From assembly GCF_008107725.1 (NCBI RefSeq), contig NZ_VIRN01000061.1, forward strand, positions 496,001-560,000: a stretch of DNA of 64,000 nucleotides. The letters are read 5' to 3'. Position numbers and translations under genes: made by a program. Under the pieces are notes generated by a model. That model saw only the letters and a program-made list of their open reading frames with translations, was not told where the DNA came from and made no database searches. Position 1 is the first letter of the stretch; every line of letters begins with the position of its first letter. Shown in pieces: positions 7,157-44,413 of this stretch. This DNA is from Marinobacter sp. BW6 (GTDB lineage Bacteria > Pseudomonadota > Gammaproteobacteria > Pseudomonadales > Oleiphilaceae).

Positions 7157-8035
7157 TTACCCGGCGGGTTCACTTGCCATTTCACGGCCATTATTCTGCC
7201 TCAGCATGGCCAGTTCATCCACCAGACCCGAGCGCCATGGCATCTGTTTAATACCGAAGGTATTGCGGATTTTGGTGCATATCAGGGTGGTATTAACCGG
7301 CTCAAGATGGCCCCACTCCGGCACCTCATCCACCACCCGAATACCTTCGGGAATCCCCGGAAGACCGGCAATTGCGAGCCCCAGCTCGTATAGATTGATT
7401 TCCTCGGCACCGGCGTACTGATACGTGCCCCACACCTCGGCCCCGCAATCAAGTTGCAGAACCACCGCCTCAATCACCCGGGCCAGATCCCGAACCGCCA
7501 AAGGCTGGCCGCGGCATCGCCCCGGCAATGACAGTAACTCGTCGGCACCGGTACTGGCTTGAACCTTTCGAATAAACCGCGCCAGGCTCCAGCCCGTCCG
7601 TAGAATTATGTGCCTCGGTAACAGGGTGCGCAGTGCCTGCTCGCACTCCCATTGCCAGTTGCCCAGCTCATTCACCGGCTGCCCCGGGTTGGAGGTGATG
7701 TACCCGCTTTGCTTGCGGCCATCGAATACATAGCAGGAGGATAGCTGGAACAGCGCCATGCCACGATCGCGGGCAAACTCCGCAATGGCCACTGGCAGTG
7801 AGAACGCCGCCATGTGGACGCCCTCAGGGTCTTTCTCTGCGACTTCCGGATCGGCCATCCAGAGTGCGTTCACAATCAGGTCGGTATCTTCAGGAATCCA
7901 GTTTTCCAACGCATCCAGGTCCGCATTGGAGGGGTCACTGACGAGCAATGGGCTGACGTGCAGGTGTGTTTCCCGCAGGCGCTCCAGCAAGAGCTTCCCC
8001 AAAGGGCCGTAATCGTGAACAACAAGTACATGCAC
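7157..8035 (-). CDS. RmlD-like extended SDR (sugar-nucleotide-binding type) lacking catalytic Tyr/Lys
   Basis: A 292-residue Rossmann protein of the RmlD (dTDP-4-dehydrorhamnose reductase) branch. The conserved strand SSCYVFDG (99-106) and the following proline turn are present, but where active members have Tyr-x-x-x-Lys (YGxxK before the helix ending in E) this protein reads ELGNWQWECE (123-132), giving Leu124 and Gln128. The usual glycine-rich nucleotide loop is also altered (HDYGPLGK). A conventional reductase is therefore unlikely; binding or a regulatory role, as in human MAT2B, is possible. It converges with the FNR gene, and no rhamnose genes are nearby. Confidence 0.75.
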   Translation of the reverse strand: MHVLVVHDYGPLGKLLLERLRETHLHVSPLLVSDPSNADLDALENWIPEDTDLIVNALWMADPEVAEKDPEGVHMAAFSLPVAIAEFARDRGMALFQLSSCYVFDGRKQSGYITSNPGQPVNELGNWQWECEQALRTLLPRHIILRTGWSLARFIRKVQASTGADELLSLPGRCRGQPLAVRDLARVIEAVVLQLDCGAEVWGTYQYAGAEEINLYELGLAIAGLPGIPEGIRVVDEVPEWGHLEPVNTTLICTKIRNTFGIKQMPWRSGLVDELAMLRQNNGREMASEPAG

Positions 8036-28573: not shown

Positions 28574-29017
28574 GTGGCCTACCTGACGCTATTTCTGACC
28601 GCGTTCGCTGCCGCCACGCTGCTGCCCGCCTACTCGGAAGTGCTGCTCGGTACCCTGATAACCCAGGGTTACTCCTGGTGGTGGCTGTGGTTCTGGGCAA
28701 CGCTGGGTAACACGTTGGGCTCGGTCGTTAATGGTGTTATCGGCCGGCAGGTGGATCGCTTTAAGCATAAACGCTGGTTTCCGATCAGCGAGATGCAACT
28801 GCACAAGGCGCGGAACCGCTTTAACCGTTATGGCCAGTGGTCACTGCTGATGGGTTGGTTGCCCCTGGGGGGCGACGCGCTGACCCTGGTTGGCGGGATC
28901 ATGCGCGTACCCTGGCTCAACTTTGTCATCCTGGTGGGTATCGGCAAGGGCGCCCGCTACGCCTTTGTGCTCTGGCTTGTGGCAGAGGCGTCCGGTGCAT
29001 CGCCACCCTCACCGTAG
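28574..29017 (+). CDS. YqaA-like DedA/SNARE-associated family membrane protein
   Basis: A 147-residue membrane protein with four or five hydrophobic segments and the family feature LLPAYSEVLLG near the N-terminus and GWLPLGGDALTLVGGIMRV near residue 97. The small YqaA branch of the DedA superfamily is of unknown substrate; larger DedA proteins move polyprenyl phosphates. It starts at GTG 28574 with GGAGGGG just upstream. Its last 61 bases overlap the end of the converging AarF-type gene. Confidence 0.85.
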   Translation: MAYLTLFLTAFAAATLLPAYSEVLLGTLITQGYSWWWLWFWATLGNTLGSVVNGVIGRQVDRFKHKRWFPISEMQLHKARNRFNRYGQWSLLMGWLPLGGDALTLVGGIMRVPWLNFVILVGIGKGARYAFVLWLVAEASGASPPSP

Positions 29018-30654: not shown

Positions 30655-31746
30655 ATGTCGCAATCCGCAAGAAAAACGCCGGACCCGGAACTGTCTCAAT
30701 TCCGGGTCAAGGGCGAGATTCCTGTCCCGATTCTGATCAACTGGTTGACCGCCGTTGCCGTTCCCCTTCTGTTTTTCTTTGCCTGGCGCTCGAGCCTGCA
30801 GAACGATCCGATTACGCCGCCCTTGCTGATTGGCTTCGCCGTCCTTCTGGCGGTCAATTCTGCGACCTATCTGCTTTCCGGCAACAAAACTCTGCAACGA
30901 AGGGGATTTATTGCACTGATCACGGTGCTTTTCACCTATCTGGCCATCTACGCCGTGGAGGACGGTTCTGCCATTATCTGGCTGTTCGCCTATCCCCCCA
31001 TTATTTTCTATATCAGCGAGTCCCGGGTTGGCGTTCTCGCCTGCGGCGGCGGGTTCGCGGCCGTCATTTTTCTGTTCAGCCCGCTGGGAGACTTCCTGTT
31101 TGAGCCTCCACACAGCACCAGTTTCCGAATAACCATGGTGGCGGTGCTGGGCTTCGAAATGGTTACCTGCTACATCCTTGACCAGAGCCGTCGGCGAAGC
31201 AAGCTGGGCCTCCTGAAACTGGCTGCGGAATTCGAGTATGCCGCCAAGCATGATGCCCTGACTGGCCTTGCCAATCGACGGGAAGCCCTCGAGCAGCTCG
31301 ATATCGAGTATCAACGCTACCTTCGCAACGCCCGGACCTTTTCTGTGCTTCTAATGGATATCGATCTGTTCAAGAGCGTTAACGATAACTACGGGCATCA
31401 CGTGGGAGACGAGTTGATCATCCTGGTTGCCAGAACCCTGAGAGAGCAATGCCGCAAGGTTGACACCCTGGCCCGATGGGGCGGCGAGGAATACCTGGTG
31501 CTGCTGCCGGAAACCAACACCGAGGAGGCCATGTCGTCTGCCAACCGGGTCCGGGAAGCCTTTGCCGCCAAATCCTTCAGCACGGAGCAGGGCCAGGTTC
31601 AGGCCACAATCAGTGTGGGAGTGGCATCGATCCGAGGGTCCGAATCCATCGACCGCCTGCTGCAGCGGTCAGATGAAGCTCTGTATCGAGCCAAATCCGA
31701 GGGGCGTAACCGCGCGTGCGGTTACGAAAATGAAGCCGCCGCCTGA
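30655..31746 (+). CDS. Membrane-bound diguanylate cyclase
   Basis: A 363-residue protein with six hydrophobic segments (about 28-178) and a C-terminal GGDEF domain (about 195-355). The active-site loop is GGEEY (276-280), a functional variant, and the product-inhibition I-site RKVD (267-270) sits exactly five residues before it. DALTGLANR and MDIDLFKSVNDNYGH are intact, so it should make c-di-GMP from GTP at the inner membrane. Input sensing is through an unclassified membrane domain. It stands alone, converging with lipB, one base between stops. Confidence 0.92.
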   Translation: MSQSARKTPDPELSQFRVKGEIPVPILINWLTAVAVPLLFFFAWRSSLQNDPITPPLLIGFAVLLAVNSATYLLSGNKTLQRRGFIALITVLFTYLAIYAVEDGSAIIWLFAYPPIIFYISESRVGVLACGGGFAAVIFLFSPLGDFLFEPPHSTSFRITMVAVLGFEMVTCYILDQSRRRSKLGLLKLAAEFEYAAKHDALTGLANRREALEQLDIEYQRYLRNARTFSVLLMDIDLFKSVNDNYGHHVGDELIILVARTLREQCRKVDTLARWGGEEYLVLLPETNTEEAMSSANRVREAFAAKSFSTEQGQVQATISVGVASIRGSESIDRLLQRSDEALYRAKSEGRNRACGYENEAAA

Positions 31747-40953: not shown

Positions 40954-41970
40954 ATGGCCCAGATGGCCGAAAAATTCCTGTTAAGCAAGTTGTCGCGGGC
41001 AGGCTTCGTGGCCCTGATCGCCATTGCGACCCTCTGCGCCCTACTGGGAGAACCCATGGTTGCGGCAGCTTCGGCTGCAGCCTCAGGTATAGTGATTGCT
41101 GGCAAGACCTTCCACCCCAACCGGATGAATCAGCCCTGGCCCCGGGTTCAGCAAGCTTTCTTTGTCATTCTTCTGCTGATTCTTCTGGCCAGCTTCTGGA
41201 CCGGCCCCTGGATCCTGAGCCACTGGCTCTATGCGCTTCCTCTGGTCGCCTTCGCACTGGTCCCGCCCGCGGCAGCAGCACTGGTGACCCTGGTTATCGC
41301 TGTTCTGGCGATGATCGCGACACAATGGGCTGTCGGCCTTGCTGACCGCCACCAGATGATCAGTGCCTTTCTGCTCACCCTGCTGCTCTCGGCCCTACTG
41401 GTATTCCTGCGTGGCTATAAGGCCCGCCAACTGGCTCCGTTGCGCCGGACCGATGAACTCACACAGGCCGCCAGCCGGGAATACCTTTCCGCCGACCTTC
41501 ACAAGGAAATCCAGCGCAGCGAACGGGAAGGCACAGATATGTCGATCATCATGATCGGGCTGGACACCCACCTGAGTGACGACGAACCAGATGAGGATAT
41601 TCGCTCGATACTTCCACGCATTGGTCGCTACCTGCACTCCCAGATCCGTGATTTCGACACCTACTACCGGGTTGCCGATCTGCAGTTTCTGGTGATACTG
41701 CCGGGCATTGCCACCAGCGACGCCATCGCTCGCGCCGAGACTATCCGCAAGGGCCTGGCAACGCTTCTGGAATCCCACGGAATGAATCTGACCATCAGCA
41801 CCGGAATCGCCGGACTGAATATCGGTGACGATGCCAACAGTCTGCAGCAGAGCGCAGCAAACGCTTTGCGACGGGCCCAGCAGCAGGGCGGCAACCGGAG
41901 CCAGGCCTACAGTTCGTGGTCACAGCCGGCACAACCGAGCCAACCGCAGGCACAGGGACCGGTATCATGA
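40954..41970 (+). CDS. Membrane protein with degenerate GGDEF domain retaining the c-di-GMP I-site
   Basis: A 338-residue protein with about five or six membrane segments (15-152), a short linker and a GGDEF-fold domain (about 163-315). The catalytic loop has decayed to A-D-L-Q-F (241-245), and the DxLTG-type start is TDELTQAASREYL, so cyclase activity is not expected. The inhibitory-site RDFD (232-235) is kept at the canonical five-residue distance from the loop, pointing to c-di-GMP binding. The tail (318-338) is Ser/Gln/Pro-rich. ATG at 40954 follows AAGGA. It shares an ATGA overlap with the next gene. Confidence 0.82.
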   Translation: MAQMAEKFLLSKLSRAGFVALIAIATLCALLGEPMVAAASAAASGIVIAGKTFHPNRMNQPWPRVQQAFFVILLLILLASFWTGPWILSHWLYALPLVAFALVPPAAAALVTLVIAVLAMIATQWAVGLADRHQMISAFLLTLLLSALLVFLRGYKARQLAPLRRTDELTQAASREYLSADLHKEIQRSEREGTDMSIIMIGLDTHLSDDEPDEDIRSILPRIGRYLHSQIRDFDTYYRVADLQFLVILPGIATSDAIARAETIRKGLATLLESHGMNLTISTGIAGLNIGDDANSLQQSAANALRRAQQQGGNRSQAYSSWSQPAQPSQPQAQGPVS

Positions 41971-42965
41971 CAGAGACCCGCCTCAGAACCTGGACCCACG
42001 CCTTTGGCTACGGCATCGCCTGCCTGTTCATTTTCACCCTGGCCATGCAAAACCTCCGCTATGGCTTTTACGAACTGTTTTACCTGGCCTCCGGGATGGC
42101 CATTCTGACCCTGGCAGGCGCCATTTACACCATTATCTGCCGCCGGCATCAGCTGTCCGCACCCGGGCACCTGGTCATCCTCTCCGGTCTGAACAGCGGC
42201 ATGCTGGCAGCACTCCTGACCATGGATGCACCCGGCATCAGCCACTGGGCGATGCCCCTGCTTGTTCTGAATCTGCTTATCCTGCCCCTGCGCCAGGGTG
42301 TCGGCCTCTCCCTTTTGCTGCTGATACCCATGTCGATCATCCTTTTCCTGGAACAGGCGCCGGCTGACGCCATCACCATCGCCGCGGGGCTTTTCAGTCT
42401 TCTGGCGGTTGCAGCCCTGTACATCTGGCACTATGACCACATGGCCCAGTCGGCAGAGGATCTTGCCATTACCGATCCGGTGACCGGTGCTCACAATGCC
42501 CGTTTCCTGGACGAAACCCTGCAGAAAGAGATCAGCCGGGCCATCGCTACCGGGCATTGCCTCTCCGTGATCGACCTGAGTATTGATTACGCGGATGAAG
42601 TGGCCGACCTCCACGGCAGGGATCAAGTTCAGGGCCTGTTCCGGGATATGACCGAACACCTCTTCGGCGTGATTCGTGCCGGCGATACCCTGTATACCCT
42701 GAAAGATTCCGAGTTTTTCCTGATCCTGCCGTTTACGCCGGAAGAAGGCGTTAGAGTGATTGCCGAACGGATTCGCCGTACCATCGCAGAACACCATTGG
42801 CCGGTGGTTGGCAAAGCAACCGTAAGCCTGGGCTGCACCACCCGGGGCAGCGGCGATACCCGGACCGACACACTCAGGAAGCGAGCCCACCAGGCCATGG
42901 AGGAAGCTCGCAGACGGGGTACTGATTCGGTCTGGTTCAGCCCGGGAGAAACCATCGAAACATGA
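41967..42965 (+). CDS. Second membrane protein with degenerate GGDEF domain retaining the I-site
   Basis: A 332-residue relative of the preceding protein. Hydrophobic segments fill 13-153, followed by a GGDEF fold (about 165-325). The catalytic loop is K-D-S-E-F (246-250), incompatible with normal GTP cyclisation, whereas RAGD (237-240) forms an I-site five residues before it. ITDPVTGAHNARFLDETL replaces DxLTGLxNR. Start and stop overlap by four bases with both neighbours (ATGA), so the three genes are probably one transcript with coupled translation. The two GGDEF proteins may have arisen by duplication and may form heterodimers. Confidence 0.82.
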   Translation: MTETRLRTWTHAFGYGIACLFIFTLAMQNLRYGFYELFYLASGMAILTLAGAIYTIICRRHQLSAPGHLVILSGLNSGMLAALLTMDAPGISHWAMPLLVLNLLILPLRQGVGLSLLLLIPMSIILFLEQAPADAITIAAGLFSLLAVAALYIWHYDHMAQSAEDLAITDPVTGAHNARFLDETLQKEISRAIATGHCLSVIDLSIDYADEVADLHGRDQVQGLFRDMTEHLFGVIRAGDTLYTLKDSEFFLILPFTPEEGVRVIAERIRRTIAEHHWPVVGKATVSLGCTTRGSGDTRTDTLRKRAHQAMEEARRRGTDSVWFSPGETIET

Positions 42966-44413
42966 GTAGTGCCTGGCTGAACGACCTGTCGGCATGGCTG
43001 AGCCTTCATCCCGGCTGGCTGGCAGCGGCCCTGTTTTCGACCGCATTCATCGAATCCCTGGCGATAGCCGGCATTATAGTCCCAGGTGTCGCCGTCCTGT
43101 TTGCCGTAGCCGTATTGGCCGGTGAGACCGGCATGGCGTTGCCGGAAGCACTACTCTGGGCGGGTCTGGGCGCCATTGCTGGCGACACGGCAAGTTTTGG
43201 CCTTGGGCGGCTGCTTCAAGGTCGCCTGACAACGGTCTGGCCGCTGAGCCGTTACCCGAAAATCATCTTCACCGGAGAGCGCTTTTTTAACCGTCACGGC
43301 GGTAAAAGCGTGATCATCGGGCGCTTTGTCGGGCCGGTGCGCCCCGTCATCCCCCTGGTCGCTGGGGCCCTGATGATGTCCTGGCGGCGCTTTCTGGCTT
43401 TCAACATCGGTTCGGCCATCGCCTGGGCACCGGTCTATATTTTCCCCGGGTTTCTTGTGGGCAGTGCCTTGGCCAGCGACATCAGGCCGCCAGCACACTT
43501 CTATGCGGTGATCGGCATCAGCCTCGCTGCTCTGACCGTGGTCTATTTCGTCCTTTTGCGCTTTCAACTGGGGCTCGGTGAGAACAGCCGTTTCTACCGC
43601 TGGCTGAAGCAATGGATGGCGCAATACGAGGCCACGAACAGGTTCTGGCGTCTTTACACCAATCAGCGTCCCGCCCGGGAGGGTGAGTTTCCACTGGCCT
43701 CACTCATGCTCGCTCTGGGCGCTTCCGCGCTGTTGCTGATCTGGGGACAGCTGGCAACAGCAACGAATCTGCTGGATGGATTCGACCAGGCCACTCTTCA
43801 TTGGTTCGAGCAGCTTCGACAGCCCCTGCTGGACGGCCCCTTCATTGCCATAACGCTGCTTGGCGACGCGCCGGTATTGATGGCCGCCGGGGCCCTGGCC
43901 TGCGCAGCACTGCTGTTCCGGGGTTATTATGCCGCGGCCGTCCATATTCTGATTGCCGTCGTCGTGACGGTTATTCTGGTCTGGGGCCTGAAGTCCTTGC
44001 TCGGCGTCCCCCGGCCGGACGAAGTCATTGGGCCGCCCGATTCCGGCGCCTTCCCCAGCGGTCACACGGCAGGTATTACCCTGCTGGTCACCCTGCTGGC
44101 AAGCTTTGCTGCCGGAGAAAGCCGGCACCGCAAGCGCTGGCAATCCTATGTGCTGCTGTCTCTTCCACTGGTGCCGGTGGCTCTGAGTCGGCTTTACCTG
44201 GGGGTTCACTGGTTCACGGACGTGATCGGGGGGCTGCTGCTTGCACTGGCTGTCACCGGAGCGGTGCGGGCCAGCTACAGCCGTTACGACAAAGTACCGC
44301 TGGCACCGGATATAGCTATTGTGGCTGCAGCGGTCATCTGGTTGGTCATTGCAGTCGGGTATATCGCGTTGTCATGGGACCAGGCGGTCATCAATTTCCG
44401 GCCCCTGGGTTAA
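42962..44413 (+). CDS. DedA-PAP2 fusion membrane protein
   Basis: A 483-residue fusion. Residues 1-200 form a DedA domain (IIVPGVAVLFAVAVLAG at 38-54 and GRFVGPVRPVIPLVAGAL at 120-137), and 240-450 a PAP2 phosphatase with all three motifs: K344-x6-RP, PSGHT (365-369) and SR-x5-H416-xxx-D420. DedA proteins are now known to flip polyprenyl phosphates; PAP2 enzymes remove phosphate from undecaprenyl pyrophosphate or phospholipid. Together they could dephosphorylate and return a lipid carrier. The ATGA overlap with the second GGDEF gene suggests c-di-GMP control, an inference. Confidence 0.88.
   Translation: MSSAWLNDLSAWLSLHPGWLAAALFSTAFIESLAIAGIIVPGVAVLFAVAVLAGETGMALPEALLWAGLGAIAGDTASFGLGRLLQGRLTTVWPLSRYPKIIFTGERFFNRHGGKSVIIGRFVGPVRPVIPLVAGALMMSWRRFLAFNIGSAIAWAPVYIFPGFLVGSALASDIRPPAHFYAVIGISLAALTVVYFVLLRFQLGLGENSRFYRWLKQWMAQYEATNRFWRLYTNQRPAREGEFPLASLMLALGASALLLIWGQLATATNLLDGFDQATLHWFEQLRQPLLDGPFIAITLLGDAPVLMAAGALACAALLFRGYYAAAVHILIAVVVTVILVWGLKSLLGVPRPDEVIGPPDSGAFPSGHTAGITLLVTLLASFAAGESRHRKRWQSYVLLSLPLVPVALSRLYLGVHWFTDVIGGLLLALAVTGAVRASYSRYDKVPLAPDIAIVAAAVIWLVIAVGYIALSWDQAVINFRPLG

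Follow-up and report, generated by a model that had tools for sequence, protein, structure and literature searches.

Gene organization of the locus

We analyzed a 64,000-nucleotide stretch of the Marinobacter sp. BW6 genome (contig NZ_VIRN01000061.1, positions 496,001–560,000; hereafter the window), in which three consecutive genes encode two membrane proteins with degenerate GGDEF domains, P1 and P2, and a fusion of a DedA domain with a PAP2 phosphatase domain, P3 (Table 1). The conserved residues of P1 and P2 suggest that the two proteins together probably act as a receptor for cyclic dimeric guanosine monophosphate (c-di-GMP), and P3 is a candidate for the protein that this receptor would control.

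The genes overlap by ATGA at both the P1–P2 and the P2–P3 junction. Pfam assigned a GGDEF domain to P1 (E value 4.3e-17) and P2 (1.4e-21), and VTT_dom (6.6e-14) and PAP2 (1.5e-15) domains to P3. All three proteins contain several long hydrophobic stretches, and the predicted models of P1 and P2 (mean predicted local distance difference test scores of 81.4 and 88.5, respectively) each begin with six long helices. No known membrane sensor domain was found for these N-termini: P2 scored 16 bits with MASE6, below the cut-off of 27.4, and weak MASE6 matches were obtained with 1 of 41 P2 and 4 of 46 P1 sequences. Neither P1 nor P2 gave a Pfam match to an EAL domain. An earlier note on this DNA had described the ATGA overlaps, the ruin of both GGDEF loops with an RxxD motif left five residues upstream of each, and the joining of DedA to a complete PAP2 motif set; all of these descriptions were confirmed.

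Table 1. Features of the P1–P2–P3 locus, in window positions. Gene rows run from the ATG start to the end of the stop codon.
Feature	Position	Strand	Basis
P1, 338 amino acids; six long N-terminal helices and degenerate GGDEF (Pfam residues 166-315)	40954..41970	+	open reading frame, Pfam, model
P1 E185-x-x-R188; R188 aligns with P2 R191 (PleD R313, secondary I-site arginine)	41506..41517	+	P1-P2 alignment
P1 I-site RDFD, residues 232-235	41647..41658	+	motif reading, alignment
P1 destroyed GGDEF loop ADLQF, residues 241-245	41674..41688	+	alignment
P2, 332 amino acids; six long N-terminal helices and degenerate GGDEF (Pfam residues 167-320)	41967..42965	+	open reading frame, Pfam, model
P2 E188-x-x-R191; R191 corresponds to PleD R313, secondary I-site	42528..42539	+	PleD alignment
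P2 I-site RAGD, residues 237-240 (PleD R359, D362)	42675..42686	+	PleD alignment
P2 destroyed GGDEF loop KDSEF, residues 246-250	42702..42716	+	alignment
P2 R268, corresponding to PleD R390	42768..42770	+	PleD alignment
P3, 483 amino acids; DedA-PAP2 fusion	42962..44413	+	open reading frame, Pfam, motifs
P3 VTT/DedA domain, residues 40-163 by Pfam	43079..43450	+	Pfam
P3 PAP2 domain, residues 326-438, all three motifs	43937..44275	+	Pfam, motifs

Conservation of the inhibitory site in inactive GGDEF domains

We investigated the conservation of the GGDEF domains and their inhibitory site (I-site) in alignments of 108 P1 and 108 P2 sequences, from which rows identical in their last 180 residues had been dropped (the effective number of P2 sequences was 36.9). 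A canonical GGDEF loop was present in none of the 108 P1 rows and none of the 108 P2 rows, and the position of the Mg ligand D327 drifts in P2, with Asp in 5 of the 108 rows. An active diguanylate cyclase was therefore ruled out by the loss of the canonical loop in both proteins and of a conserved Mg ligand. The GGDEF fold itself is retained. The predicted models of both P1 and P2 match GGDEF structures, and that of P2 matches c-di-GMP-bound structures, with a Z score of 25.5 for 3ign (root-mean-square deviation 1.7 over 163 positions) and of 25.3 for PleD 1w25 (1.4 over 165); the matched rows cover mainly residues 117–328 and do not bear on the membrane fold. PF00990 was detected at an E value of 0.01 in every one of 41 P2 rows and in 35 of the 46 P1 rows.

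The I-site of P2 was assigned by alignment with PleD, in which the printed chain numbers are one lower than the published numbering. E188 was present in all 108 P2 rows, and R191, R237, and D240 were each present in 107. The position of R268 was occupied by Arg in 105 rows, by Lys in two (both from a family labeled f7), and by a gap in one. The fully invariant charged residues of P2 are E188, R191, R237, and D240, with R268 at 97% after weighting; G33 and P255 are likewise invariant. The RxxD motif was kept in every P2 homologue examined except that of locus L163 (Marinobacter sp. EhC06, 7231–7989), the source of the one gap at the above positions, where an in-frame deletion of approximately 80 residues has removed the I-site and the P1 and P3 genes are open. 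In the P2 proteins of Halomonadaceae, R and D are fixed and the two residues between them vary (RDHD, RAPD, RLDD, RRHD, RQQD, and others). The Glu three residues before the secondary-site Arg is conserved in both paralogues (P1 E185, 41506–41508; P2 E188, 42528–42530), and the same position is variable in other GGDEF domains (Glu in 6 of 27 canonical controls).

For comparison, controls were drawn from the 56 GGDEF domains that the genome encodes besides P1 and P2: the 26 with the lowest scores and the 14 with the highest, 40 in total. Coming from one genome, this is a small control set. Of these domains, 27 are canonical and 13 degenerate; RxxD was found in 22 of the former and 3 of the latter. 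In a second alignment of the same domains, Arg occupied the R313 position in 6 canonical and 5 degenerate domains and the R390 position in 11 and 4, respectively. The full set of four I-site residues occurred in 2 canonical domains and in no degenerate one. The four-residue pattern of P2 is therefore unusual, and across several families it hardly varies. A further high-scoring GGDEF domain (161.7 bits) lies approximately 9 kb upstream, outside the operon (window 31243–31713, plus strand).

Paralogy and asymmetry of P1 and P2

The profiles of P1 and P2 align across 313 columns, with the membrane part included, which indicates that the two proteins are paralogues. In regards to P1, RxFD was found in all 59 readable members of the family to which Marinobacter sp. 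BW6 belongs, and RxxD was found in 8 of 10 loci from the order, in 43 of 55 loci from named genomes, and in 93 of the 108 aligned rows. The 12 named loci without this motif all belong to Halomonadaceae or Terasakiispira, in which the I-site Asp is replaced by Glu in every row (14 rows) and the Arg is mostly lost. Because the acid is retained as Glu, the P1 I-site of these lineages may be weakened and not erased. E185 and R188 of P1 were present in 107 and 106 of 108 rows, respectively, the exceptions being a gene cut by a contig end (L042) and, for R188, locus L096; R188 is retained even in the lineages in which RxxD has been lost. P1 has no conserved equivalent of R390, and it appears to be the faster-decaying member of the pair, since 11 of 46 P1 rows gave no Pfam GGDEF match at an E value of 0.01.

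Equal roles of P1 and P2 were rejected on the basis of the RxxD losses in Halomonadaceae and Terasakiispira. The earlier note had treated both proteins as I-site carriers; P2 held as the general primary carrier, and P1 did not in those two lineages. The simplest reading, which we infer from these patterns, is a heterodimer in which the primary site of P2 would face the secondary arginine of P1.

Distribution and linkage of the three genes

We surveyed 61 genomes of the family and detected P1 in 59 of them, P2 in 60, and P3 in 55. At the level of sampled genera, P2 was present in 16 of 16, and P3, as well as P3 together with the pair, in 14 of 16. One genome with a completeness of 68% (G039) yielded no match to P1, P2, or P3 under the thresholds applied. 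Each of the 54 relatives that carry P3 has P1, P2, and P3 adjacent on one strand (54/54; the P1 gene of L042 is truncated at a contig end). The spacing between P1 and P2 ranges from -17 to +94 bases, with an overlap in 48 of 54 loci, and that between P2 and P3 ranges from -4 to +222 bases, with an overlap in 35 of 54. A proA gene and a LON-domain gene were each found in 48 of the 54 fetched stretches, and the block lies between them in all 43 stretches that have both.

Outside the family, a scan of 244 genomes of the order with the P2 profile (cut-off 1e-30) gave matches at E values of 1.4e-44 or lower in two further families only, labeled f38 (8 genomes) and f7 (2 genomes). Twenty loci from the order were fetched; the P1–P2 pair lies beside proA in 10 of them (two from f7, six from f38, and two from f36), and in the other 10, P3 was present and the pair was not recognized. 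We also scanned named genomes with the P3 profile. Among the best 80 of 575 relatives, P1 and P2 lie directly upstream of P3 in 56 loci (55 scored by the filter, and L214, which the filter missed; the stretch of L179 starts within P2). Named holders of the block include Marinobacter, Oleiphilus, Terasakiispira, Halomonas, Vreelandella, Billgrantia, Modicisalibacter, Bisbaumannia, and Onishia. In a quick P3 tree with long branches and unsure deep joins, the presence of the pair requires 4 changes versus a mean of 20 with shuffled labels.

These results indicate that the block recurs outside the family, in Halomonadaceae, Terasakiispira, and two further families. A curiosity limited to Marinobacter was ruled out, since P3 accompanies the pair in 14 of the 16 sampled genera of the family as well as in further families. 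The linkage outside close relatives, on which the earlier note had staked its proposal, was thus observed in those 14 genera, in f7, in f36/Halomonadaceae, and in Terasakiispira.

The DedA-PAP2 protein P3

P3 contains the complete set of PAP2 residues, K344-x6-R351P352, P365SGH368, and S409R410-x5-H416-x3-D420, and these are invariant in 18 family members, except that S409 is nearly so. The NCBIfam models for undecaprenyl-diphosphatase scored 31.9 and 33.2 bits on P3, far under their cut-offs of 229 and 250. In the DedA half, E31, R121, and R127 are invariant in 18 rows and correspond, with equal spacing, to YqjA E39, R130, and R136; these residues and the acid D51 are reported as essential in COG0586 proteins (PMC10127716). 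By motif reading, P3 is the sole COG0586-like DedA among six VTT domains in the genome, the others being COG0398- or COG1238-like. One YqaA/COG1238-like DedA protein (147 amino acids, VTT 41.4 bits) is encoded approximately 12 kb before the block (window 28574–29017, plus strand). The genome also encodes a protein of the DUF368 type, which is the other known type of flippase. Some P3 homologues are larger: those of L191, L192, L193, L201, L206, L219, L220, and L229 (Chromatiales, Thiobacillus, and others) have about 660–700 amino acids, with approximately 200 extra residues.

From its architecture and the position of the Pseudomonas homologues between proA and LON, we infer that P3 is the orthologue of Pseudomonas aeruginosa PA4011, a protein of 437 amino acids with the same architecture (PMC12893004). 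According to the passages of that source on PA4011, its deletion does not aggravate the loss of the flippase PA4029, lowers the frequency of colistin-resistant mutants as the loss of PA4029 does, and does not lower colistin resistance in an arn-constitutive strain; the function of PA4011 is called elusive there (PMC12893004). Another source names PA4010-PA4011 as a PhoP-regulated operon and lists "peptidoglycan recycling" in a table (PMC7916210).

The residue corresponding to D51 of YqjA (PG-D51), the second proton-binding acid of the flippases, is V43 in P3, and in the 75 scorable sequences among 80 P3 proteins the residue after PG is Val in 65, Ala in 7, and Ile, Thr, or Trp in one each, never Asp or Glu; in addition, PA4011 overexpression did not rescue the loss of PA4029 in the experiments described (PMC12893004). 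A plain flippase was rejected on these grounds, and the flipping of undecaprenyl phosphate by P3, which the earlier note had assumed as part of carrier recycling, was weakened. The missing acid and the PA4011 genetics therefore favor a lipid phosphatase over a full flippase, with a DedA half that would bind or hand over the lipid.

One alternative is that P3 flips undecaprenyl phosphate as a full flippase and carries its phosphatase as a fused domain, so that c-di-GMP would set the flux of the entire recycling step. It would be consistent with the COG0586-like character of P3 and its retained E31, R121, and R127, with the suggestion of Todor et al. that PAP2 fusions dephosphorylate the carrier prior to flipping (PMC10127716), and with the shared effect of PA4011 and PA4029 losses on colistin-resistant mutants. 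We nevertheless consider it unlikely in view of the D51 position, the failure of PA4011 to replace PA4029, the unaffected colistin resistance of the arn-constitutive strain, and the DUF368 protein in the same genome. For the favored phosphatase, undecaprenyl pyrophosphate is the most plausible substrate, to which we give somewhat less than an even chance.

Proposed mechanism and alternative explanations

In the proposed mechanism, P1 and P2 are paralogous pseudo-diguanylate cyclases of the inner membrane that together would form one asymmetric c-di-GMP receptor. The ligand, most likely an intercalated dimer, would sit in the primary I-site of P2 (R237, D240, and R268) and reach across to R188, the secondary arginine on P1; a second bridge, at the reciprocal site between P1 RxFD and P2 R191, may form in most lineages. 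Clamping and release of the two cytoplasmic domains would be passed through the paired membrane domains to a neighboring membrane protein. The usual client would be P3, which is predicted to strip phosphate from a lipid pyrophosphate or phosphate, with undecaprenyl pyrophosphate the most plausible candidate, at the periplasmic face, while its DedA half would bind the lipid or pass it on. We assign a probability of about 0.5 to this reading as a whole, that is, an asymmetric P1–P2 receptor with P3 as its usual client in the removal of lipid (pyro)phosphate. Its receptor part is the better supported, and c-di-GMP binding by P1–P2 appears probable. The earlier note had proposed a membrane c-di-GMP switch acting on a lipid carrier; the receptor part of that proposal gained from an I-site that was kept over long periods as the active site decayed, and its flipping part did not stand so well.

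The receptor part competes with the explanation that the I-site is a structural relic and that P1 and P2 are adaptors or sensors of another input that bind no nucleotide. RxxD is common among canonical GGDEF domains, as the controls indicate, and Halomonadaceae keep the P1 gene though RxxD is lost, with the acid retained as Glu. A relic, however, would not readily account for R and D of P2 in 107 of 108 rows while the loop, the Mg site, and, in Halomonadaceae, the two intervening residues drift, nor for the near fixation of the R390 and R313 positions in P2 against 11 and 6 of 27 canonical controls, nor for RxxD in just 3 of 13 degenerate controls. This explanation is therefore improbable in our estimation. 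The part assigned to P1 in the receptor is less distinctive: Arg is also found at the R188 position in the controls (6/27 and 5/13), and E185, R191, and L178 of P1 match R188 in conservation.

Whether the pair acts on P3 is, in our judgment, evenly balanced. In its favor, the genes have stayed neighbors, often with overlaps, through long spans of evolution. The pair occurs without P3 between proA and LON in 5 of 60 P2-bearing genomes of the family (four of genus g10, and G013), and two of the six f38 loci (L093 and L096) have the pair with no DedA seen nearby. In all seven cases, the pair lies beside proA with its I-sites intact, and P3 therefore cannot be the sole client. When the P3 profile was run at an E value of 0.001 against the genomes of g10 and G013, no P3 was detected; the only matches were DedA or PAP2 proteins of weak similarity, encoded separately and at other places. 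At the other four f38 loci, a DedA protein without PAP2 lies beside P2 (L092) or approximately 1 kb away (L094, L095, and L097). Conversely, P3 without the pair was seen at least in Pseudomonas, Kushneria, Larsenimonas, and H. ventosae, where it lies beside proA or within approximately 1 kb of it, and in Motiliproteus, Thiobacillus, and others, where proA is also missing from the flank. P3 is also intact beside the P2 of Marinobacter sp. EhC06 that has lost its I-site. Moreover, the gene order around proA is conserved in any case, and the linkage may for this reason be partly inherited. All of these observations, together with the undistinctive P1 arginine and the DedA features and genetics described above, weigh against the proposed mechanism. 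The stand-alone DedA proteins of L092, L094, L095, and L097 carry a P3-like VPG-V/I signature, which suggests that PAP2 was lost or never gained in the f38 proteins.

The same observations would be expected if P1–P2 were a c-di-GMP receptor whose main client is another envelope process, such as the nearby Rod machinery (mrdA and rodA) or an unlinked enzyme, with P3 a neighbor from an old gene order. The seven P3-less pairs, the P3 genes that lack the pair yet occupy this position, or one close to it, in Pseudomonas, Kushneria, and Larsenimonas, and the proA-nadD-rsfS-rlmH-mrdA-rodA run, which is conserved in itself, all fit this explanation. It does not account as well for the P2–P3 overlap in 35 of the 54 family loci having both or for the P3-like DedA without PAP2 that accompanies the pair, directly or nearby, at four of the six f38 loci, and we regard it as possible but clearly below an even chance.

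Comparison with known systems

PelD, the c-di-GMP receptor of Pel polysaccharide synthesis, is one of the systems most like P1–P2. It is a membrane protein with a dead GGDEF domain that has RxxD and a second I-site arginine and is encoded in the operon of its client, and in Bacillus cereus PelD detectable c-di-GMP binding is lost when R363, D366, or R395 is changed (PMC7112168). P2 has both PelD-like features, the degenerate fold and RxxD with the second arginine, and P1 has the fold and, in part, the I-site residues. PelD differs in possessing a GAF domain and in having a polysaccharide machine (Pel) as its client (PMC7112168), whereas P1–P2 consists of two paralogues with no GAF detected and a lipid phosphatase as neighbor. 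In PleD, WspR, and DgcR, the same I-site residues mediate product inhibition: a c-di-GMP dimer cross-links RxxD of one GGDEF domain (with R390 in PleD) to the secondary arginine of the other (R313 in PleD) (PMC8041772, PMC8457831). An active enzyme dimer is inhibited there, whereas P1–P2 has lost its catalytic site and would bring together two paralogues.

In regards to P3, PA4011 (papP) is the same DedA-PAP2 fusion, and its Pseudomonas homologues lie between proA and LON, but no GGDEF pair was seen at four Pseudomonas loci. The DedA flippases UptA, YqjA, and PA4029 (COG0586) resemble P3 in the E39, R130, and R136 equivalents (by comparison with YqjA), and P3 differs from them in the replaced D51 equivalent and in its fusion to PAP2. 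LapD-type proteins are inner-membrane c-di-GMP receptors with a degenerate GGDEF domain that bind c-di-GMP via EAL; P1 and P2 are alike in the degenerate GGDEF domain at the inner membrane and differ in having no EAL match.

The receptor type is therefore known from PelD, and the paired form and the DedA-PAP2 partner were not found described in the literature searched, which covered few subscription papers. The arrangement of a GGDEF pair with a DedA-PAP2 protein was likewise not found there, in agreement with the earlier note, which knew of no system of this kind. One of the sources retrieved concerns phosphatase screens (PMC6355987). A recent review of undecaprenyl phosphate lists a handful of intrinsic controls on the carrier, and c-di-GMP is absent from its main text (PMC12826051).

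Biological significance

Irrespective of P3, the P1–P2 pair represents a natural experiment in which one I-site clamp is split across two paralogues. The most specific form of the mechanism remains tentative: a c-di-GMP dimer clamped asymmetrically, with one pseudo-cyclase contributing its primary I-site and its paralogue the secondary arginine, might gate the DedA-PAP2 protein and thereby directly set the carrier supply for peptidoglycan, lipopolysaccharide, and exopolysaccharide. If the proposal is true, the biofilm signal would be linked to carrier allocation by a receptor pair placed beside a PA4011-type protein, usually among elongasome genes, and this would offer a testable reason for the coexistence of PA4011-type proteins with normal flippases.

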